From a virus, in IMG/VR virus record IMGVR_UViG_3300032293_000757, positions 1 to 36,551 of that record: a stretch of DNA of 36,551 nucleotides; one strand, written 5' to 3'. A model generated the notes under the pieces. That model worked only from the letters and a program-made list of their open reading frames with translations, did no database searches and was not told where the DNA came from. This document shows positions 3,138 through 32,545 of the stretch, in pieces. The position numbers and the translations under genes are program-made. Each line of letters starts with the position of its first letter. The first letter of the stretch is position 1.

Positions 3138-4019
3138 ATGACCGACTCTGTTAAGGATTACTTAAACGAAATCGCTAGGTATCCGCTGCTTACAGCAGAG
3201 CAGGAGATTCAACTAGCGCGTCAAATCGAATGCGGCACTGCCCTAGCCGATAAGCAAGAACTTAGTGCTCAAGAGAAGCGCACACTTAAGGTGGCTGAAC
3301 GCGCTAAGCGTAAGCTGATTAACTGCAATCTTAGGTTGGTTGTCAGTGTTGCTAAGCAGTACACGCGGCGGCTGAATGGCAGCGGCATGGAACTTATGGA
3401 CTTAGTACAGGAAGGTGCATTCGGACTTACACGCGCAGTCGAACTATTCGACAGCAGTAAGGGTTACAAGTTCTCCACTTACGCTTACTGGTGGGTAAGG
3501 CAGGCAATTACGCGGGGCATTGACGCTAAGGAGCGGCTTATCCGTGTGCCGCAGCACGGACTCGACAAGGTATATAAGGTGGTGCGGTTTCAGAAGGCGC
3601 ATTTGCAGGAGCACGGCAAAATGCCTTCTGTTGCGCAGATGGCGGCAGAGGCAGATGTTGAGGTTGCGCACATGCAGACGCTTCTAGCCCGGAACGCCTG
3701 GCATCGCAGCCTCGATGCCCTGGTAAGTGAGACGGGCAGCCCAATCCTGGAGCTTATCCCTGACACCGATTCGCTGGATAGGCAGAAGGATTGCATGGAG
3801 AAGGATGAAAAACAGGCGATGTTCCAAATCGCCCTCGCCTGTCTAACTGAAGGCGAACTGCTTACGATCCAACGCAGATACGGGCTTAATGGCGGCGAAC
3901 CGATGTCACTGTCGAGCATCGCAGCTGAGGATAATGTTTCAAGAGAACGCATCAGGCAGCGCATCGAGGCTGCACACCTTAAAATGCGTCTGCGTTTGAA
4001 ATCAGTGAGGCTTGTATGA
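3138..4019 (+). CDS. RNA polymerase sigma-70 family factor
   Basis: 293 residues, all core regions present. Region 1.2 is 1-33 (DSVKDYLNEIARYPLLTAEQ). Region 2 is about 58-128, including DLVQEG, the 2.3 aromatic run YKFSTYAYWWVRQ and AITRGI. Region 3 is about 140-215. Region 4 is about 233-288, with a helix-turn-helix at SLSSIAAEDNVSRERIRQRI. The long region 1.1 of host RpoD is absent, as in the group 2 sigma factors of cyanobacteria, which it most resembles. It should redirect host RNA polymerase to phage promoters, probably the late minus-strand operon. The stop overlaps the next start (ATGA). The start is supported by region 1.2 beginning at residue 3; no clear Shine-Dalgarno is visible. 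Leu codons before A-starting codons are mostly CTT here. Confidence 0.93.
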   Translation: MTDSVKDYLNEIARYPLLTAEQEIQLARQIECGTALADKQELSAQEKRTLKVAERAKRKLINCNLRLVVSVAKQYTRRLNGSGMELMDLVQEGAFGLTRAVELFDSSKGYKFSTYAYWWVRQAITRGIDAKERLIRVPQHGLDKVYKVVRFQKAHLQEHGKMPSVAQMAAEADVEVAHMQTLLARNAWHRSLDALVSETGSPILELIPDTDSLDRQKDCMEKDEKQAMFQIALACLTEGELLTIQRRYGLNGGEPMSLSSIAAEDNVSRERIRQRIEAAHLKMRLRLKSVRLV

Positions 4020-9745: not shown

Positions 9746-10990
9746 TCAGATCCTCCTGCCGTGACCGACAGCTGTGTAGGTGAATTGGCGGCTTACCGGG
9801 GTGCCCCCACTATTGAAGAATCCTACTTGAAAACCAGTGCTGGTAACGGCGGACACTGTGAAGTAATCCCCTGTCGCCAGGTTAAGTGCAGCGATATTGA
9901 TAGCGGGCGTGTCGTAGAAGGCACTAGCTAAGGTAGCGGTGTAGGTGCTCGCTCCGCTGGTTAGCTGGGCGGAGTGCTCTACGCGTTGCTGTAGCTCAAT
10001 GATAGCGCCGAGTTGGTTGATAATTGTGTTCTGACTTATCTGGTCGCTGTAAGAGGTCGCTTTGAATTGGAAGCCACGTCCACGGAGCATGTTGTTGGTA
10101 CAGATCCGCCATTCGCCCCAGGTCGGAGTGCCCGCAGGATTATCAGGAGTGCTGCGCACGTAAAGTAGCACGTTTGTGTCAGCTACGTCGATGCCGTCTA
10201 GATCGCCCCAGGTGTCTAAGTTTCCGAGGTTGTCGTCGAAGAGTGCGGCTACGTTGAATGGAAGTATGGCGAGACGGCGGGTTATGTTTGCGTCGTAGAC
10301 GGCACCGAGGTCGATAGAGGACGCAAATAGATACTCGCCGCTGGGGTTGACACCGCCTAGGGAATCGAGGGTGCCTAGCGCGTCGAAATTGCCGTCTGGT
10401 GCGAGCGTGTCGAATAGCGTGCCACTGTCAATAATGAGCCCGCCGCGTTGAGCACTGTAGTAAAGCCCGTTAGCGGTGCCAGGGAAGCCTGAGCTATCTT
10501 CGACTATGGACGAAACGACTAGACGCGGGTGAGGGCGAGGTAGGTCTACGGATGTAGTGGAAACATCAGCGGAGCGAATACCTCCACTTGTAGTAAACTT
10601 TAGGAGGTATGTACCTTGGAGGAGTGGGACGATGGTTGCGTTTTGAGCGCCTGATGCGTTTGGGACTATCTGTGTACTTGCCTCCCATGAAGCTCCGACC
10701 ATTACAGGTTGGTGCCGAATAAGTACACCGCCGCCTACTGTAACATTAACGTCTGATGTTGAAGCCCAACTGAGCAGCCCCGTGGTTTCGTCGATCGGCG
10801 TGATTGAAGCGCCGGTTACGTCGGGTGGGACGGTTACTTGAGTAAAGACCGTTTGCCTAAGCGTGGTCACGCCTGAGCGAACTCCGATGCCGTTTATTGC
10901 AACAATTTCAATGTCGTAGATGCCAGGTGCGGCGTTGGGAATTTCCGCGCTTGGAGCGTTGGTCTTAAAGGTTTGCCAGTTGTAACTCAT
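9746..10990 (-). CDS. J-like tail tip protein, C-terminal part
   Basis: 414 residues continuing the J-like protein. Its first ~40 residues (MSYNWQTFKTNAPSAEIPNA, PGIYDIEIVAINGIG) are the second half of an FN3 domain whose first half ends the upstream ORF (VEYEVRYRTVSQ). A second FN3-like region follows (about 50-145). Further C-terminal lies an LFDDNLGNLDTWGDLDG segment, typical of gpJ-type proteins. The end has beta-rich ASTYTATLASAFYDTPAINI. Its ATG overlaps the upstream stop (ATGA). It could be a translationally coupled second chain, the product of -1 frameshifting, or the result of a single-base assembly error. The role would be receptor binding at the tail tip. Confidence 0.75.
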   Translation of the reverse strand: MSYNWQTFKTNAPSAEIPNAAPGIYDIEIVAINGIGVRSGVTTLRQTVFTQVTVPPDVTGASITPIDETTGLLSWASTSDVNVTVGGGVLIRHQPVMVGASWEASTQIVPNASGAQNATIVPLLQGTYLLKFTTSGGIRSADVSTTSVDLPRPHPRLVVSSIVEDSSGFPGTANGLYYSAQRGGLIIDSGTLFDTLAPDGNFDALGTLDSLGGVNPSGEYLFASSIDLGAVYDANITRRLAILPFNVAALFDDNLGNLDTWGDLDGIDVADTNVLLYVRSTPDNPAGTPTWGEWRICTNNMLRGRGFQFKATSYSDQISQNTIINQLGAIIELQQRVEHSAQLTSGASTYTATLASAFYDTPAINIAALNLATGDYFTVSAVTSTGFQVGFFNSGGTPVSRQFTYTAVGHGRRI

Positions 10991-13509
10991 TGGCTTACAG
11001 TCCTGTAACGAACTTCGTACTCGACGGCCGTAGGGTCTCCTTGCCAGTCTACCACTAGCTTGTTCTGTATCTGTCCGTCAGCTTCGTAAACCGCGACTGT
11101 TGTATTTGCGTTCGTAGGTTCTGTGGGAGCAGGTACGCTTAGGGGTAGATAGGTTTTTCTTTCAAGCGAACGACCTCTTTCAATGTAGTCGTACTTGCTA
11201 GAGTTATACGATATGGCATTTATAACGTAAGTAGTGCCGTCTTGTTCTTGGACTCCAAGTACGCGCCAAGTGGTAGAAGACATGCTATTGTCGTTGTAAA
11301 TAAACGCGCCGCCGGCTAAGGGAGGTACATCAAATACCCCAGAAATAGTAATTCTATCGCCACTTACGCCGGCTACAGATTTTGTGGCAATAGTACCATC
11401 TGTCAGTGCTACAAGTATTGTAGGGGAGCCGCCCACAGGAAGATTAGTCGCAGCAACCTCGTCGATAATTATGTATGTGCTAGTGGCGGCTGCGATACGG
11501 CCGCCGCGTCGAACGCCTGAGCGTTGAGGATCAGATATAGCAATAACCATGCCAGGGCGAACATTTATTCCGGCGTCTATAGATGTCTTGAAGGTTACGG
11601 TCTCGTTCTCGTACTGCTCTGTATAAAGCAGCCACTCGCCCAGTCGATAAGCTTGACTACGGCTAGTGCAGGCAAACGCAGTTATTTCCGCTGTGATTAC
11701 GCCGTAACGGGCGATAGCTTCAGTGTCCTCTACTGATTCATAGGCTATTTCCTGGTTCTCTAGGTCTAGGTATCCGACTACGGCTACGGTGTGGCGAGTC
11801 TTTAGGCTACTGCCTGTGTATTGAAAACCTTCTTCAGTGACATTAGCTTGATTAAAAAGGTACACAGGATCGGTGGGACGATCCTGTGCGACCATGATCG
11901 AACCTGCGCTCCAGTAGGGCATGGCTCTGAATACCGAGCACATATCGTTTATGAGTTTATAGGCTTCTGTTAAATTCTGTATTGATACATTGCAGGAGAA
12001 ACGAGGCTCTTGCCCGCCTAGCCCATCGCTTACAAGCTCATTGCAATACACACTGGCTTGGTAGAAGCTAAACTTATCCAGGTCTCGCGCAGCTAAGTTA
12101 AAACCGTAGCGGCAATTTGTGAGCAAATCCCATAAGCACCAGGCGGGATCAGAGCACCATTCAGCGGCGCCAAACGTACCATCCCAGATGCCGACATAAG
12201 TTACTCGACCATTTTCGTAGTCTACAACGGCATTACTTGGTAGCTTTATTCGTAGACCTCGTACACGATAAGAACGGAGAGGTACGCGGCTAAAATCTTT
12301 TGCATTTAGTTGAATACCTAACAAAGCCGAATGCTTATATGATAACTTGGCGTCCGTAATTTCAGTGTAACTTAGCCACGTAAAAGAGTTTTGTACCTTA
12401 GGATTTGTGGAATCAGGGGTGATTCGCACAACCCTAACGTCTACGGGAAACACCCCGCTTATACCAAAAATATGACTGCGCTGGTACGCATCGCCTGTTC
12501 GTCCTGTTAAGTTGAAGTCTACTACAGGCGTGTAAACGCCACCATTGTACGCCACTTGGATTTGATAGTGTACTGAGCTGCCGATTATGTCGCCTTTATC
12601 TGTGATTTCTTGGAGAGCAGTAAAGTTTAGGGTTACATTAACTCTATTTACATCAGCGTCTGTAATACGCCTAGTTACAGGCTCGTTAGCTATTACGTTT
12701 ACTCCAACACTCCTTTCGTTTCTAGCACTATCAAAACCCGGTATGTAGGTTTGATTTCCTGTTCCATACCGCGCAGTCAGCGTAACATTATTAAAATTAT
12801 AGTCAGCGGCGGTAGGAGCTGTAATGCTCGCGGACGCACGTAGAATGGGAGTTTTATCAAAGTAAATATCTTTAAGCAAAGCTGTGTTGTATGTCGGTGT
12901 ATCACGAATGAAATTGCGTGCAGAGGGGAAACCTTCGATTTCACCTTCGCCTATAAGGTCTACGAACTGGACAAAAGCAGTCGAGTTTAGGGAGTCTTCC
13001 GACGTGGTGGGGGTGTAAGACCCTCCGCCGCCTTTACCGCCACCACCACCGGAACCGACCACAAATCCTGGTCCGAGACCGGCATTGTGGACACGGATTG
13101 ATCCTGCTACGAAGGTATGGTGACCCTCAACTGTCAGGTTATAAACGGTGCTTAGGGGTAGGGATTCGCGGCTAACTATGGGGCGTAGATGCCCGTTCTC
13201 ATCTACAAGGCAATCGTCGTCACCCAGCGTGCCGATCTCTACAAATGCGTTGAACTGATTTAGTACCCAGTGGTTGGGGGTGGCGTCTAGGTACGTACCA
13301 CCCCAGATGCAGTAACGGACTACGGGGTGGTTTTCATGTACATGTACCTTTAAGATTGCAGCTTCATGGTAGTTACCACGATCATCAAAACTAAGAACGT
13401 GGTCGCCATTCTGCAGCGAATCTATACGCCGTTCTCCGCCAGGAGTACGTATCAGGGTAGAGCCGATAAAACAGCCGCCACCACCTGAACCTGCTAATTG
13501 ATGTGTCAT
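10987..13509 (-). CDS. J: J-like tail tip protein, N-terminal part with Hint domain
   Basis: 840 residues. A 12-residue Gly-rich lead (MTHQLAGSGGGG) precedes an intein-like Hint domain (13-142). A second Gly-rich stretch follows, and then the usual gpJ start (LNSTAFVQFVDLIGEGEIEG at about 175-195). The body matches the phage tail tip hub: FDKTPIL, YQIQVAYNGGVYTP, SYRVRGLRIKLP, WCSDPAWCLWDLLTN, YKLINDMCSVFRAMPYWSAG and GMVIAISDPQRSG. The C-terminus breaks off in an FN3 domain (YEVRYRTVSQ) at a stop overlapping the next ORF. The order after gpI, and the lambda-like neighbours, support gpJ. The product sits at the tail end and contacts the receptor. Confidence 0.88.
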   Translation of the reverse strand: MTHQLAGSGGGGCFIGSTLIRTPGGERRIDSLQNGDHVLSFDDRGNYHEAAILKVHVHENHPVVRYCIWGGTYLDATPNHWVLNQFNAFVEIGTLGDDDCLVDENGHLRPIVSRESLPLSTVYNLTVEGHHTFVAGSIRVHNAGLGPGFVVGSGGGGGKGGGGSYTPTTSEDSLNSTAFVQFVDLIGEGEIEGFPSARNFIRDTPTYNTALLKDIYFDKTPILRASASITAPTAADYNFNNVTLTARYGTGNQTYIPGFDSARNERSVGVNVIANEPVTRRITDADVNRVNVTLNFTALQEITDKGDIIGSSVHYQIQVAYNGGVYTPVVDFNLTGRTGDAYQRSHIFGISGVFPVDVRVVRITPDSTNPKVQNSFTWLSYTEITDAKLSYKHSALLGIQLNAKDFSRVPLRSYRVRGLRIKLPSNAVVDYENGRVTYVGIWDGTFGAAEWCSDPAWCLWDLLTNCRYGFNLAARDLDKFSFYQASVYCNELVSDGLGGQEPRFSCNVSIQNLTEAYKLINDMCSVFRAMPYWSAGSIMVAQDRPTDPVYLFNQANVTEEGFQYTGSSLKTRHTVAVVGYLDLENQEIAYESVEDTEAIARYGVITAEITAFACTSRSQAYRLGEWLLYTEQYENETVTFKTSIDAGINVRPGMVIAISDPQRSGVRRGGRIAAATSTYIIIDEVAATNLPVGGSPTILVALTDGTIATKSVAGVSGDRITISGVFDVPPLAGGAFIYNDNSMSSTTWRVLGVQEQDGTTYVINAISYNSSKYDYIERGRSLERKTYLPLSVPAPTEPTNANTTVAVYEADGQIQNKLVVDWQGDPTAVEYEVRYRTVSQ
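13084..13473 (-). other. Intein-like Hint domain inside gpJ (BIL-like)
   Basis: Residues 13-142 of the J ORF, 130 residues, without a homing endonuclease. The first residue is Cys (CFIGSTLIRTPGGERRIDSL, block A). Block B has T77-x-x-H80 (ATPNHWVL). The end has VYNLTVEGHHTFVAGSIRVH and then Asn142 (blocks F and G). The residue after the Asn is Ala, not Cys/Ser/Thr, so the usual second transesterification of protein splicing has no nucleophile. This matches A-type bacterial intein-like domains, which mainly cleave at their ends. Both flanks are Gly-rich. Cleavage would remove the 12-residue lead and free the mature gpJ N-terminus; this is inferred. Confidence 0.85.
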
Positions 13510-13535: not shown

Positions 13536-14102
13536 TTACACAACTGTAGTGCCAGCGCTGATCGTAATGCTGCCCACTACAACTTCGCCATAAATTATTG
13601 GAATGGGCAGCCCAGAGCGGCTGGTGTTTTGAATGCCTGAAAAGCTGTAACTTTGTGTTTTTGGGTCTTTTTCGCCGCCTAGGTTTAGATTAGCGTTTGG
13701 TACGGGAGAGAGCAACTGCGCAACACCACCCAGAACTAAGCTAGCACCTATACCTAGGAGCACAGGGCTTAGTGCTAGACCAAATAGGGCTAAACCGGGG
13801 ATAAAAAATGAGACTGCGATCAGCAAAACGCCGGCGATAATTCGGCCTACAGCACCACTACCGGCAATTACTGGTGTAAGTGATATGACTTCTGTATCGC
13901 CTGCGGGATAGTGAAGTTCATGCTCTGTAAGTATGTGCTTTCCTGTGCTTACGCGGTAATGCTGGTCGGCCATATGGCGTTCCAGGCAGGGAAAGTTACT
14001 AATCAAAAAGCGTACGGCTTCGGCAGCGCTTTCGACCTCCGCGTGAAATACACGCTGTCCCAGCTTTTTGGCTAGCTGCCCGTAGACCTTGATGGTCTTC
14101 AT
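13536..14102 (-). CDS. I: Tail assembly protein, lambda gpI-like
   Basis: 188 residues. An N-terminal ubiquitin-like segment ([20 protein letters not shown], about 1-80) ends with [16 protein letters not shown]. It is followed by a long Gly/Ala/Leu hydrophobic stretch (about 85-130) and a conserved C-terminal block ([20 protein letters not shown], then [14 protein letters not shown]). This is the normal architecture of lambda gpI. The protein helps form the tail tip initiator but is not retained in the mature tail of lambda. The ATG overlaps the gpK stop (ATGA), and gpJ starts 27 bases downstream. Nothing is missing. Confidence 0.9.
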
Positions 14103-14833
14103 GGTGTGGTGGACTGGAGCTTAGCCCAATCGTAGTGCCTAAGGCGCCTGCCGGTGCAGTGCTGCAGCCAGCCGCCGTAGATGTCACGACTGCTAAGACG
14201 CCCACGAATATGGTGAAGGATTAGGTTATCTCCTACATAGACGGCGCAGTGATCAAGACCTTTGCCGTCTATACGCAGGAGTAGTCCGTCCCCTCGTTGC
14301 AGTGGTTCCTCTTCAGGTATGACAGTAAAACCTGCGTTAGCCCAGCAATCGTCGAACATGGGCGCGGCTACAAAGTCTTCAGAGCTTAGTGGACGTTTCC
14401 AGTCGGGCAATGTTATGCCGTTTTCGGCGTACCAGTCACGAACCAGGGTCCAGCAATCTGCTACGCCCCATGCGTACTGGCGTCCTATTAAGGGGGCTTT
14501 GTAACCGCATGGAGCGAGTTCGGACCACGCGCCCATGTGGGGGTTGCAAATGTACCAGGCAAGGCCGGAAGATTCGCAAGCGGTGCGGTCGGCTTCGCTG
14601 GGTGCAGCCGGAGTTTTCGGATGACTGTGAAAAATGCCGGTGATTTCGCCCAGCTCTTCGGCGGCAGCGTAGGCTTCGGGGTCAAGTATGAACATCTCGT
14701 CAGGCTCGGCTGAGATGTTACGGCAGGGTATGTAGCGTTCACGCCCTTTGACAACAACTACAAGGCCACATGCCTCGCGTGGTACTTCTTGGAGTGCGTG
14801 CTGTAAAGCGTGGGCGCGACTTAGCTCGTTCAT
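14099..14833 (-). CDS. K: Tail tip peptidase, JAMM + NlpC/P60 (lambda gpK-like)
   Basis: 244 residues with two catalytic domains. The N-terminal Mov34/JAMM domain has E20 (PREACGLV) and H69-x-H71-x7-S79-x2-D82 ([14 protein letters not shown]), a complete zinc-peptidase motif. The C-terminal NlpC/P60 domain has C127 ([13 protein letters not shown]), H195 (LDHCAVYVG) and the HH pair at 207-208. As in lambda gpK it should act in tail tip assembly and local cleavage of peptidoglycan during DNA entry. The stop overlaps gpI, and the start is adjoined to gpL (one base shared). Both active sites look intact. Confidence 0.93.
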
Positions 14834-15582
14834 TAGAAGCTGTATTGACCGATGCCGGGGAATGACCCGAAGGGCAACACTGCGTTTGCGCCAAAACGGG
14901 CCTCACAGCTGGTAAGGCGTTTGCCGCAAACGTCAGCCAGCTCGTTGGGTGTGGCGTTGTCGTTCTCGTCGAAGTAGCCGGCGCCGGTATAACCGCATTC
15001 GGGGGAGCGGTAACGCCACTGGCAGATGTTGTTGATGGTTTGTCGCTTGGGGACGCGAACACCGGCTAAATCCAGGGCACTGACCAACTCAAATTCGACG
15101 ATTTCGCTTGTTTCGGCAGATTTACGGTCCACAAAGTAGACCTCTTCAGGTAGGGAGGCTGTGGCGTCGGGGCTGCCGAATGGGTTTGTGTCGTTCTCAA
15201 AATTCACTGCATCCAGGAAGCGAGCAAGGGTGCGGATGCGGACCACGCGGGCACCGGCTAAGTCGGCGCTGTAGGAGAAAGCAGCGATTTCCAACAAGAC
15301 GGCGGTAATGGTGGCATCGACGTTGGCGATGCGGATTTTTGGGCGTGGCAAGGAGCCGTTGCCTGTGTATTCAAAACCCTCGGCCTCGACCGGCCATGCG
15401 TAGTAGATGTTGTCGGCCCAGATGACGTGGCCTGAGACTTGCTTGGCATTAACTCCGGCGTGGAAGCGATACACCTCGCAGACGCCGTGGGTGCGGGTGC
15501 AGGTTGTGACCTCGTACAGCTCTATGATTGAGCTGGGATTGAGTTTAGCTAGCTCTTCGCGGACCTCGGCGGTTACGGTCAT
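14833..15582 (-). CDS. L: Minor tail protein, lambda gpL-like
   Basis: 249 residues. An N-terminal two-thirds beta-rich domain ([14 protein letters not shown], then [20 protein letters not shown]) is followed by a cysteine domain with C187-x8-C196-x22-C219-x6-C226. From memory this spacing equals that of the four cysteines which hold a 4Fe-4S cluster in lambda gpL. It therefore probably carries the same cluster and sits in the tail tip complex next to gpK. The start is just downstream of the 46-residue zinc protein, and the stop is shared with gpK. Two further cysteines at 28 and 35 are not part of that set. Confidence 0.92.
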
Positions 15583-17260: not shown

Positions 17261-17350
17261 TTAGAGGTAAGGACCAGAGATCCTATACGTAGCGGATGGC
17301 TTGTAGATCAAAGATGCGGGGATGGCGGTGTAGTGGGAGTAGATCATCAT
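17261..17350 (-). CDS. Tiny ORF filling a gap
   Basis: A 29-residue ORF (MMIYSHYTAIPASLIYKPSA at the start) that overlaps the LamG stop (ATGATG) and ends 9 bases before the gpM-like start. It fills an otherwise empty 95-base gap and has no recognisable family. A coupled start and lack of other use of the region speak for coding. Its size and aromatic/hydroxyl composition speak neither way. It could equally be a leader for the next gene. Confidence 0.35.
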   Translation of the reverse strand: MMIYSHYTAIPASLIYKPSATYRISGPYL

Positions 17351-18108
17351 GCGTCAGGGAATGGCGCAGTAGGTGCAGCGAAGTTGGCGGTGTAACGGGC
17401 GACGCCTTTTGTAATGCGTAGTTCATCTATCCATCCTTGATAGTTTTCATTGGCGCGGAATCCGCTATCTCCGACAGTCAAGCGAGCGCCGCTAGTTATG
17501 TCATCGCTGTTTGTGGACGTATCGACTAAAGTGCCATCTATGAAAGTTCGGAGGCTTGTGCCCTCACGGCTTGCTGCAACGTGATACCAAGTATCAACAG
17601 CGATAGTGCCCGCCGCCGTGCCTGAGCTATACCAAAGCAGTTGGCCGTTGTAAATGTAAAGCGTATTAACGTAAGTTGATGCGACCCCAATCAGGCCCTT
17701 GTAGCCTGTAACTGAGGACTCAGGCCGAATAAATGCCTCTACCGTAAAATCGCCTGTTCCCATCTCAAGAGGCCCCAGTCCGGTTCCAGTATCGAGACGG
17801 TCAAGAGTTCCATCGAAGTATGCCGATGCTCCACCAAACTTGCTCTGCGCTGTGCTGATCTGTGTGCTGCCGTTAGCAGTTACGGTTAGGGCATTGCTGC
17901 TGCTGTCTGTAAACGTGGTGCTGCCATTACTGCCGTTCATGTGCAGCAGCAGGCTTACGTTTGCCCAGTAGGGATCACCTGCAGTAACTTCTGGCCAAAT
18001 TGCAGCCCTTTGCGCCACGCTCTGCTCATTCTGAAACCACAGTCCCGATGCCGAGCTGGTTGTAGGCGTCCGCCTGACGCCCATTAAACCGCCGTTAAAG
18101 CCAAGCAT
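17347..18108 (-). CDS. LamG-domain virion protein
   Basis: 253 residues. Residues about 48-245 form a concanavalin A-like LamG domain: WANVSLLLHMNGSNGSTTFT, SKFGGASAYFDGT, GTGDFTVEAFIRP, WYHVAASREGTSLRTFIDGT and YQGWIDELRITKGVARYTAN. Such domains bind glycans or other surface ligands, and in phages they decorate capsids or tail tips. The N-terminal ~45 residues (MLGFNGGLMGVRRTPTTSSA) are low complexity. The start overlaps the stop of the gene at 18108. It sits between two gpM-like proteins, as if a cassette had been inserted. A role in host surface adhesion is inferred. Confidence 0.8.
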   Translation of the reverse strand: MLGFNGGLMGVRRTPTTSSASGLWFQNEQSVAQRAAIWPEVTAGDPYWANVSLLLHMNGSNGSTTFTDSSSNALTVTANGSTQISTAQSKFGGASAYFDGTLDRLDTGTGLGPLEMGTGDFTVEAFIRPESSVTGYKGLIGVASTYVNTLYIYNGQLLWYSSGTAAGTIAVDTWYHVAASREGTSLRTFIDGTLVDTSTNSDDITSGARLTVGDSGFRANENYQGWIDELRITKGVARYTANFAAPTAPFPDA

Positions 18109-29368: not shown

Positions 29369-32300
29369 TCAGGTGCCGAAGCAGAAGGCGCCAGGTTGCT
29401 TGACCGCGAAGTCAACGTCCTGGAGGGCGATGACGCGGACCGTGCCAGCGGTGGAGCCGGCGTAAGGATCTACGGTGAGGTCGAGGCCGGACCACATGCC
29501 CACGACGAACTGGGAGAAGTCGCCGAAGAGGCAGTCGTTGTTGCCGAGCTGGTTGCTCACGATCACGGGGTAGCCGTTGATCTCGTCGTTCTCGTAGACG
29601 AACTTGGCTTCGGTGCCGGCGACGCTGGTGCTCTTGAGGGCACCGCGGGCGGCGGCGTTGATGATGTAGCGCATCGAGCCGGCGTCGGCGTTGGCGGTGG
29701 CCACGTCGGTTTCCATGCCGATGTACTCGGCGAAGGTGCCAAAGGTGCTGATCGTCTGGCTGCCGATGCCGGTGGTGTTGGTCAGGCCCAGGGGCTGGTT
29801 GGTGGAGCCGGTGCCGTAGATGGCGGCGCGGTCCAGCTCAAGGGCGATGATCTTGGCCAGGTCGGCACGGATCATCGACTCCACGTCGATCGAAGCCTGG
29901 AGCAGCAGGCGGCGGCTGTAATCGACGAAGGCGCCCACGGTCTTGGGCGTCATGTTCACCTGTTCGATTGCCTGCTGGCTCTCGGTGGGTGAGCCGCTTT
30001 CGCCGACCCAGTAAGCGGTCGCGGCGGAAGATTGTTTCGGGATGCTTACGTTGCCTTGGAGGCCGCTCAGCATGGTGACGCCGGCTTGCATCATCGCCAT
30101 GCGGTTACGCAGGAGGTCGATGAAGCTGCCGCTCAGCAGATCGGTGGAGACGAGGTTGCCACCGGCGGTGCTGGTGCCGACCACGAGGTCGCGGCGGAGC
30201 ACTTCGTTGGGGATGACGATGCCGTTGGAGGAGCGCTGATACCTCTCGGCGGCAGCCTTGCCGACCTCGATTTCAAACGCGGCGGCTTCGCGGGCAGCGC
30301 GGTCGCCGGGGTTGATGAGGTGGTTGAGGGCGCGGACGAAGGAGAAGCTGCGGACTTCCTTGTCGGTGAGGCCGAGGGCGGCGGAGTCGTCGTCATGGAC
30401 GCGACCTTGGACTTCGACGCGGGTGCGTCCGATGTGGTTCAGCACGGCTTCGCGGGCTTGGTCGAGGGTGGATTCGTTGTCGATGAGGGTGTCAGCCAGA
30501 TCGGTGCCGATCTGGTGCTGGGCGCACATGGCGCGGATGGCCGCAACACGCTCACGCTCGGACTGCCGAGCGGCGGATTGGACCTCCTGAACGTTGGTGG
30601 CTTGTTCCATGGATGGAGGATCTTGGGGGAAGTCAGCTCCGCGCTCGGCGGTCTGCTTAGTTTCTAGTGTAGGGGTTGACGCTTGATTTGTTTCTTGCGT
30701 CGTAAGTGGCGTGGGGGATGTGTTGGTGTCGTCGAGTGCGCGGCCCAGGCCAACGGTCTGGTCGGCGGGCACGCTTACTGAGGAGACTTCCAACACGTTC
30801 CAGCCCACTACTTGCATGTCGCCATTGGATGCTTCGCGCACATCGTTGATCTCGTAGGCGAAGGATACGTTGCGGACGATGCCCGCTTCGATGTCACGAC
30901 GGCGCTTGTATTCTTCTGTGCCTTTTTCGGTGGTGTTGGGGCTCCATTTCGTTTTGACGTAGAGGCGGCGATCGTCGCCAAGCCAGGCTTTTTCGGCGAC
31001 GCCGAGCACCACGTCGCGGTTGTGGTTCCAGAGCCAGGGGCCGCCGTCGTTCATGCGGGCCAGGTCCATGGCGCCGTCATCGTGCATCAGCACCTCGCGG
31101 CCCCACCAGCGCTCCACGGGCGCCTCGGAGCTGAAGCTAAAGGTGAGGCCAGCTTCGGTGCTTTCTTCGACGCGGAGACCTTGCGGAGCTTCGCGCCTAA
31201 GCACTTCCTTACTGATGGCCTTGATGTCGATTTTGCCGTCCATGGACTTGCCTGTAGCGGGCTCAAAGGAGATGGGCGTGTAGTCGTGATCGCTAAGCCA
31301 CTTCTTAGCTTCACTTACTGTAAAGCGTGCGGCGTCGAAGCGTAGGGCTTGTAGGCGCACGGGATCGTCGCCTTTGATTCCGTAAATGGAGTCGATACCT
31401 TGGGCGAAATCGTTGTTCTTGCGGCGGAAGCGGTCGAACTGGCCGGGGTCTAAGAGGCGGGCAGCGTGTTCGTTGGGGTAAGGGCGTTGTTCCAGGCTGC
31501 GGTCGTCGTCTTCGCTGTCGTCCGAAGGTTCGTCGAGGGGCTCGATCTTGCGGAGCGTCGAAAACTTATGGCCGACGAGGGTTTCGGTTTCGCTCCAGCC
31601 GTCCTGCTTAGGGCGGTAGATGCGGATCAGGGCGGCGGGGTCGTCGGCGGAGGCGTCGATGCTGAAGTCGCTGCCGGGGACGCCGAGGGTGCCGGTACGC
31701 ATGACGTGCTCGATGCGCCCGCGGGCCGTGCCACCGCTGGATTGCCAGGCAACGAAGTCGCCTTCGCTCAGCTCGCCGGCTGCGGCGCGTTGGGCTGCGT
31801 AGTCACGCACAGACTTAGCGGCGAGGCGCACTTCATCGGCAGAGGTAGCGGTACGGCTTTCGGCTGAGGCGTCAGCCTGGGGGGTGAGCAGCTGTTCTGG
31901 GATGATCCAGAACTTGCAGGCGCCTTCGGGGGCGATGTCGCCGGCAACGACTTCGCAAGCGCGAGGGCCGGCATAAAAGATGCAGTTGGAGCACTGCATC
32001 CCTTCGCTGGCGAAGGGGCTGACAGGCATGTAATGAGCGCCGTGAGCGCCAATGCCCTGATCAAACTGACCGAGATCATCGACAATTTCCTCCAAGGCTT
32101 CATAGAGCGCAACTTGGGGAGCTGTGAGGTCTGGCGTCAGCTCGCGTTGCTGATCGGCGGTGGCGTCCATGACAGCCGTAAGTGGTGTGCTATGCACTCT
32201 ATCGGTGGCGCTTTTTATGGTTTTGGCCTTAGCGTCGGCCCAGGTCTTGCCGGGATCGCCGCCCCAGGCGGCCCAGGCGACGCGGCCGGGTGACGGATAA

Positions 32301-32545
32301 GCGGGGCTGCCCGGTAAGTAGCCATCGCCCTGCTTGTCCACTTCGTGGCGAGCGAACCAGGCGGACATCGTGATGACGGTGGCGGGGCTCAGCTCATTAC
32401 CGCTGAGGATTTGGGTGGCGCGGCGGGCTGCTACGGAGGTGCCACCTTTGCGTCCCTCGGCCTTCCAGGCGCGGTAGCGCTCGGCCTCGGCCCGCATCCC
32501 CTTGGTGGGCATGAGGTTGATCTCGGTGCCGTTGACGTTGGCCAT
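29369..32545 (-). CDS. Multi-domain prohead protease - scaffold - major capsid fusion
   Basis: 1058 residues in one frame. 1-115: phage domain with GGTSVAARRATQILSGNELS and WFARHEVDKQGDGYLPGSPA. 185-210: cysteine cluster C185-x2-C188-x8-C197-x12-C210. 258-340: SH3-like block (EGDFVAWQSSGGTARGRIEH, DPAALIRIYR). 354-430: PYPNEHAARLLDPGQFDRFR. About 458-605: HK97-type prohead protease with H508 (WLWNHNRDVVLG) and S561 (RNVSFAYEI). 660-770: helical scaffold-like region. 775-1058: HK97-fold major capsid protein (IVIPNEVLRRDLVVGTSTAG, SIPKQSSAATAYWVGESGSP, YSRRLLLQASIDVESMIRAD, IYGTGSTNQPLGL). The protease probably frees the capsid protein by cutting in the linker. No separate capsid gene is seen. 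Confidence 0.92.
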   Translation of the reverse strand: MANVNGTEINLMPTKGMRAEAERYRAWKAEGRKGGTSVAARRATQILSGNELSPATVITMSAWFARHEVDKQGDGYLPGSPAYPSPGRVAWAAWGGDPGKTWADAKAKTIKSATDRVHSTPLTAVMDATADQQRELTPDLTAPQVALYEALEEIVDDLGQFDQGIGAHGAHYMPVSPFASEGMQCSNCIFYAGPRACEVVAGDIAPEGACKFWIIPEQLLTPQADASAESRTATSADEVRLAAKSVRDYAAQRAAAGELSEGDFVAWQSSGGTARGRIEHVMRTGTLGVPGSDFSIDASADDPAALIRIYRPKQDGWSETETLVGHKFSTLRKIEPLDEPSDDSEDDDRSLEQRPYPNEHAARLLDPGQFDRFRRKNNDFAQGIDSIYGIKGDDPVRLQALRFDAARFTVSEAKKWLSDHDYTPISFEPATGKSMDGKIDIKAISKEVLRREAPQGLRVEESTEAGLTFSFSSEAPVERWWGREVLMHDDGAMDLARMNDGGPWLWNHNRDVVLGVAEKAWLGDDRRLYVKTKWSPNTTEKGTEEYKRRRDIEAGIVRNVSFAYEINDVREASNGDMQVVGWNVLEVSSVSVPADQTVGLGRALDDTNTSPTPLTTQETNQASTPTLETKQTAERGADFPQDPPSMEQATNVQEVQSAARQSERERVAAIRAMCAQHQIGTDLADTLIDNESTLDQAREAVLNHIGRTRVEVQGRVHDDDSAALGLTDKEVRSFSFVRALNHLINPGDRAAREAAAFEIEVGKAAAERYQRSSNGIVIPNEVLRRDLVVGTSTAGGNLVSTDLLSGSFIDLLRNRMAMMQAGVTMLSGLQGNVSIPKQSSAATAYWVGESGSPTESQQAIEQVNMTPKTVGAFVDYSRRLLLQASIDVESMIRADLAKIIALELDRAAIYGTGSTNQPLGLTNTTGIGSQTISTFGTFAEYIGMETDVATANADAGSMRYIINAAARGALKSTSVAGTEAKFVYENDEINGYPVIVSNQLGNNDCLFGDFSQFVVGMWSGLDLTVDPYAGSTAGTVRVIALQDVDFAVKQPGAFCFGT

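Follow-up and report, generated by a model that had tools for sequence, protein, structure and literature searches.

A bacterial intein-like Hint domain at the start of the tail tip protein gpJ of uncultured phages, a candidate self-excising cassette

The tail tip protein gpJ binds the host receptor and is part of the hub that gates DNA release. The window analysed here, a stretch of viral DNA of 36,551 nt (all of IMG/VR record IMGVR_UViG_3300032293_000757), carries its tail genes in the order L-K-I-J:

14833..15582, minus strand: gpL-like hub protein (phrog_18, E 3e-86)
14099..14833, minus strand: gpK-like tail protein (phrog_30, E 2e-94)
13536..14102, minus strand: gpI-like tail assembly protein, just upstream of gpJ (phrog_32, E 1e-47)
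10987..13509, minus strand: gpJ (central tail fibre or hub protein) with an N-terminal Hint domain, 840 aa (phrog_31, Pfam, lambda gpJ structures in the PDB)
10990..13038, minus strand: gpJ hub body, residues 158-840 (alignment to lambda gpJ)
9746..10990, minus strand: next ORF, 414 aa, ATGA overlap with gpJ (weak match, continuing part of phrog_31)

The 840-aa ORF matched phrog_31 (E 5e-206), the Pfam families FNIII-A_GpJ and Phage-tail_3 and the lambda gpJ structures (E about 3e-108, PDB 8iyk); hub-domain homology and gene order agree in identifying it as gpJ. The 414-aa ORF showed a weak match to phrog_31 positions 915-1051, and gpJ seems to be split into two ORFs of 840 and 414 aa (window 9746-13509). 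Lambda gpJ residue 2 corresponds in the alignment to residue 158 of the window protein, so that everything ahead of that residue (lead, Hint domain and first Gly tract) is an N-terminal extension by comparison with lambda. Elsewhere the window contains a free-standing HNH endonuclease gene (1988-2533, about 9 kb from gpJ), a phage RNA polymerase sigma factor (phrog_351, 3138-4019), which Synechococcus phage S-LBS1 also possesses, and a tail-region ORF (17347-18108) matching pieces of baseplate wedge and other large-phage virion proteins. A 1058-aa ORF (29369-32545) matched head maturation protease and major head protein families and is possibly a protease-capsid fusion with an extra N-terminal part.

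The N-terminal extension of gpJ is made up of the following elements:

13474..13509, minus strand: lead (N-extein), residues 1-12, MTHQLAGSGGGG, with the motif of the Hint-free gpJ start
13084..13473, minus strand: Hint domain, gpJ residues 13-142, 130 aa, without endonuclease insert (profiles, PDB match, predicted fold)
13471..13473, minus strand: Cys13, intein position 1, block A nucleophile (invariant in 141/141 intact distinct copies)
13270..13281, minus strand: T77-P78-N79-H80, block B TxxH motif (sequence, copy comparison)
13117..13119, minus strand: His131, block F histidine of VYNLTVEGHHTF (invariant; both His codons occur)
13084..13089, minus strand: His141-Asn142, block G, end of the domain (invariant across distinct copies)
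13081..13083, minus strand: Ala143, +1 residue, without side-chain nucleophile (Ala in 139/141 distinct copies)
13021..13083, minus strand: C-terminal flank, residues 143-163, AGLGPGFVVGSGGGGGKGGGG (AGLG nearly invariant; second copy of the Gly motif)

The domain reads CFIGSTLIRTPGG...LDATPNHWVLN...TVYNLTVEGHHTFVAGSIRVHN and is followed by Ala143. An initial annotation had described residues 13-142 as intein-like on account of Cys13, TPNH, the His-Asn end, Ala143, Gly-rich flanks and the lack of an endonuclease. All of these read as it stated, and its coordinates (13084-13473) correspond to C13-N142 codon for codon. It had also suggested a search with Hint and intein profiles, and both kinds were matched by the first 166 residues of gpJ. 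In Pfam this piece scored against PT-HINT (PF07591) with E 5e-7 and 30.5 bits (cut-off 27.7), Hint_2 (2e-5), Intein_splicing (7e-5) and Hint (1e-4); when the full 840-aa gpJ was scanned, PT-HINT reached 26.3 bits, just under its cut-off. Among the NCBIfam models intein_Cterm was over its cut-off and intein_Nterm under. The best match of a PDB sequence search was 2LWY, a bacterial intein-like (BIL) domain (E 3e-7). In a diverse alignment all 33 members matched PT-HINT and Intein_splicing, and 31-32 of them matched both intein_Nterm and intein_Cterm at E 0.01. An AlphaFold2 model computed from this alignment had a pLDDT of about 97 over residues 13-142 and disordered flanks. Foldseek and VIA-align placed inteins, BIL and Hedgehog domains at the top of its fold matches; Z was 21.7 for Ssp DnaB (1mi8) and 21.0 for the BIL domain 2LWY. 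No endonuclease domain was found in gpJ by the Pfam scan or in the 130-aa domain, and this length was shared by all aligned J copies except that of locus L243. Profiles and predicted fold confirm, far beyond chance, that residues 13-142 are a complete endonuclease-free Hint domain, which by its sequence retains every part needed for self-excision. A class 3 intein was set aside as Cys1 is present. A translation artefact was likewise set aside; an in-frame Met lies near the lead in nearly all copies (it is not evident in L076 and L156).

The initial annotation had mentioned similar sequences in J proteins of uncultured phages, and these proved to be abundant. A scan of IMG/VR with the N-terminal 186 residues gave 450 relatives and a scan with the alignment 529, the two sets overlapping (more than 400 in each). 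In all of the 80 best relatives the Hint domain lay at the start of the gpJ ORF, with a short lead before it and the gpJ body after it. Of the 295 Hint ORFs in the full set of fetched loci, 285 included the gpJ body; five of the remaining 10 were short, lay at the end of a contig or locus and had gpJ-like flanks, and the others were distant Hints.

The catalytic residues are highly conserved among these copies. Twenty-two positions were invariant in 111 distinct copies, including Cys1, His119-Thr120 of block F and His129-Asn130 (intein numbering). At the invariant sites synonymous codons varied freely, with both codons seen at Cys, His and Asn in the same 111 copies. Block B was TPNH with a single TANH, and position -1 was Gly in 111/111. 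In a larger set Cys1 and the His-Asn end were unchanged in all 141 intact distinct copies, and the +1 residue was Ala in 139, Ser in one (L080) and Gly in one (L210). The median dN/dS (Nei-Gojobori) was 0.075 for the domain versus 0.125 for the gpJ body, taken as its first 300 residues, and the domain had the lower value in 22 of 30 disjoint pairs. Purifying selection on the domain is at least as strong as on gpJ, although selection of this strength would be equally expected if the domain had another, non-processing role. One copy departs from this pattern: in L243 (IMGVR_UViG_3300046777_002327, gpJ ORF from 2404) an in-frame loss has removed about 20 Hint residues including GTVYNLTVEG of block F, while the gpJ frame is still open; its close sister is the Hint-free L226. 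The L243 copy is probably a dead or dying allele or a misassembly. If it is neither an assembly error nor a dying allele, an open gpJ with a damaged Hint suggests that removal of the domain is possibly not strictly essential.

Inteins need Cys, Ser or Thr at +1 for splicing. A-type BIL domains, reportedly described by Amitai (2003) and Dassa (2004), manage without this residue, and the window domain resembles them most. It has blocks A, B, F and G with Cys1, TxxH, the VYN...H of block F and a His-Asn end, as in 2LWY, and no endonuclease; Cys, Ser or Thr is missing from +1 throughout, apart from the Ser of L080, and the fold is that predicted above. The proposal of an A-type BIL-like domain with Ala at +1 was thus borne out. 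Its position sets it apart. The BILs known so far occur in non-conserved bacterial proteins, within hypervariable stretches (PMC7765530), whereas the window Hint is found at the very N-terminus of a virion hub protein that is conserved. Class 1 mini-inteins (Ssp DnaB 1mi8, gp41-1) share the four splicing motifs A, B, F and G and the predicted fold (Z 20-22, 1.4-1.6 A), but they have Cys, Ser or Thr where the window has Ala143, and the Gly tract of the window is not a conserved active site. Unlike them, the gpJ cassette brings a repeat of the lead motif with it, and unlike full-length class 1 inteins it has no homing endonuclease. PT-HINT of polymorphic toxins was the best-scoring Pfam family; in those proteins it sits just before a C-terminal toxin (PMC3482391), whereas the window Hint precedes the gpJ hub body. 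Delivery of a toxin was set aside, a toxin domain being absent. Phage terminase and RNR inteins (e.g. of phiCbK) are also phage-borne Hint domains, but they lie in enzymes, are about 300 residues or more in length, have Pro at position 1 in one case and Cys in one, and none is in a tail tip protein (PMC3556154).

We think it likely that gpJ is made as a precursor and that its N-terminal A-type BIL Hint domain, an optional cassette, removes itself after translation. Cys13 would attack the Gly12-Cys13 bond with the assistance of T77 and H80, leaving a thioester on the 12-residue lead. Asn142 would then cyclise, assisted by H131 and H141, and release the gpJ body at Ala143. Subsequently the lead would be hydrolysed off, or the amine of Ala143 would attack the thioester so that lead and body become joined. 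In other words, mature gpJ would start with AGLGPGFVVGSGGGGGKGGGG if cleaved and with MTHQLAGSGGGG-AGLGPGF... if ligated, and either product would have a Gly-rich start as in Hint-free gpJ. We infer from this scheme that virions lack the domain. The peptide AGLGLGIAGAGGGGGGGK would be a semi-tryptic N-terminus of the cleaved form, IVGAGGGGGAGLGLGIAGAGGGGGGGK would indicate ligation and Hint-internal peptides with LDATPNHWVLNQFNAFVEI would come from unprocessed gpJ.

The relative weight of the two products is a matter of the flanking sequences and of Ala143. A-type BILs without a +1 nucleophile form the Cys1 thioester and cyclise Asn, giving mostly cleavage and some ligation by the freed amine (PMC4031507; PMC7664689). 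Ala at +1 rules out canonical transesterification and favours cleavage. An I-x-G-A/S-Gly motif is also present in the C-terminal flank, in 98 of 100 distinct cases; if released at Ala143, the body would therefore already be gpJ-like at its start, which again favours cleavage. On the other hand, the lead, about 10-18 residues long, is conserved too: 98 of 100 distinct leads retain the I/L-x-G-A/S motif found at the start of Hint-free gpJ, and the lead of a Hint carrier matches the native gpJ start of its Hint-free sister (L043 versus L214; L243 versus L226); this favours retention of the lead by ligation. Conservation of lead and second copy does not by itself separate cleavage from ligation. 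Residues of the two motif copies are correlated within loci (181 matches versus 153 expected, p 0.0005), shared ancestry remaining in this test. L210 (2557-3036), with Gly at +1, lacks the second motif copy and could regain a canonical gpJ start only via ligation. On balance we lean slightly towards cleavage as the main product, with both products expected; ligation may occur beside it, by analogy with what has been published for A-type BILs. The initial annotation had proposed that the domain cuts itself and the 12-residue lead off gpJ. Its first part is very likely, and Ala at +1 fits cleavage; the loss of the lead is in doubt because the lead is conserved and matches the native start.

The Hint domain is distributed patchily. 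Many gpJ genes recovered with the gpJ body are without it and start directly with M..I-x-G-A/S-G. In a gpJ-body tree of 97 rows its presence or absence needs 7 changes, at least 6 of which follow from branches with strong support. Within sister pairs in which one member has the Hint, the difference is the cassette: L043 reads MTDIQLISGAGGGGG, Hint, AGLGLGIAGSGGFGGGGKGGGG and the Hint-free L214 MSDIQLISGAGGGGGGGKGGG, while L243 begins MTDQRLISGAGGGGG before its Hint and the Hint-free L226 begins MTDQPLISGAFGG... Hint domains had a mean identity of 72% versus 52% for their gpJ bodies (L163 and L021: 85% in the domain, 46% in the body), and in the Hint tree L009 and L021 were placed, with moderate support, within the Hints of another gpJ clade. 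The higher identity of the Hints and the displacement of L009 and L021 both argue for exchange, and the cassette has probably been passed between gpJ alleles, with stronger constraint on the domain accounting for part of the identity gap. In L223 (IMGVR_UViG_3300049893_000962, 2056-2972) gpJ has two tandem Hints, a 435-nt unit with about 73% DNA identity between the copies. The motifs are intact in both, and ATTCATGG(C/T)GC... repeats occur at the joints. Long direct repeats flanking the domain were found neither in the window nor in L013, L223 being the sole locus with repeats, so recent repeat-mediated insertion is not supported in the window and L013. In its evolution the Hint domain plus AGLGxGxIAGxGGGG thus behaves like an optional cassette, one that enters, leaves and shifts between gpJ alleles at the Gly tract.

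Removal of so bulky a domain could time the assembly of the tail hub: the N-terminal region of lambda gpJ contacts gpL and gpI there (PMC10721106), and this junction has been called a focus of hypervariability in a recent comparison (PMC13243795). In one version, which takes up an idea of the initial annotation, the domain is maintained because its cleavage, slow or set off by a trigger, governs when gpJ folds, trimerises or enters the hub; gpJ would start at Ala143 and the lead would be discarded. Ala at +1 and the published dominance of cleavage in BILs (PMC4031507) agree with it, as do a flank motif that makes the body complete without the lead, a dN/dS below that of the gpJ body and a location directly before the position of lambda gpJ residue 2, where hub proteins meet (PMC10721106). 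However, many close relatives do without the domain, so hub assembly in general does not need a Hint; moreover, the lead is conserved, and cleavage alone would leave L210 without any motif. We regard such a switch as possible, though somewhat doubtful. The patchy distribution with its exchanges suits a mobile cassette as well as it suits assembly timing, or better, and a self-excising passenger, neutral or selfish, is at least as compatible with it. The domain could be a mini-intein that truly splices, ligating lead to body, and from which the endonuclease and the +1 nucleophile have been lost. The match between the lead and the native start of Hint-free sisters, the patchy and exchanged distribution, the tandem copy in L223, Ser at +1 in L080 and the start of L210, canonical after ligation and not after cleavage, all speak for it. 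Against it are Ala at +1 in 139/141 copies, a second copy of the insertion-site motif, which a normal intein would not bring, and the absence of an endonuclease for spread. This is a serious possibility that falls short of being probable. Both of these readings depart from the self-removal preferred here in the role or main product, not in the self-removal itself.

The domain might instead be retained in virions, with a structural or contact role at the hub. Its confidently predicted fold, tethered by flexible Gly-rich linkers, and the tolerance of a damaged copy in L243 would suit this, but if no reaction took place, it would be difficult to account for the constancy of precisely the catalytic Cys1 and His-Asn among copies that have diverged strongly, and many relatives lack the domain; we consider retention unlikely. 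Hedgehog-like conjugation, in which the Gly12 thioester would serve to link a further tail protein, or a host molecule, to the lead or to gpJ, is very improbable. Hint domains are able to transfer an acyl group onto an external nucleophile, as Hedgehog does (PMC7664689), and gpL, gpI and gpJ, the split hub proteins, come together close to the N-terminal region of gpJ (PMC10721106), but the lead has only about 10-18 residues and there is no sterol-type or partner domain. Returning to self-removal, the fullest version, which we put forward as rather doubtful, would make the Hint cassette, across a large group of uncultured phages, a recurrent, horizontally exchanged maturation element of gpJ that itself supplies the new processed N-terminus Ala-Gly-Leu-Gly..., with hub assembly depending on or timed by this self-editing.

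The chemistry is already known. A literature search, with most subscription papers outside its range, turned up no account of gpJ carrying a Hint or BIL domain; the location, the abundance, the tandem duplication and the apparent endonuclease-free mobility look new. Judging by the gene sequences, self-editing probably finishes the cell-contact machine in many uncultured phages. If self-removal takes place in these hundreds of environmental phages, virion maturation includes cleavage or splicing of a tail tip protein, and the annotated N-terminus of gpJ is wrong for the carriers. The cassette would also be a natural endonuclease-free Hint element with Ala at +1 moving between alleles of a virion gene, and would bear on how splicing elements lose, or manage without, the +1 nucleophile.

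The hosts of the carrier phages are likely cyanobacteria, to judge from sequence relationships: the closest isolate terminase was that of the freshwater Synechococcus phage S-LBS1 (46%). Among INPHARED isolates no phage had a Hint in gpJ, and the best distant matches were Hint domains of Ruminococcus phage proteins. Two such hypothetical proteins (L365, L366) have a BIL-type Hint with Ala at +1. In 84,980 reference genomes there were only two matches, a cyanobacterial MAG contig (L082) and a Flavobacterium MAG protein (L083), and with these two alone there is no clear prophage host. The Flavobacterium protein (L083:4375-6435) has a Hint of the same kind (45% identity) at its extreme C-terminus, ending VHN-GGKG.
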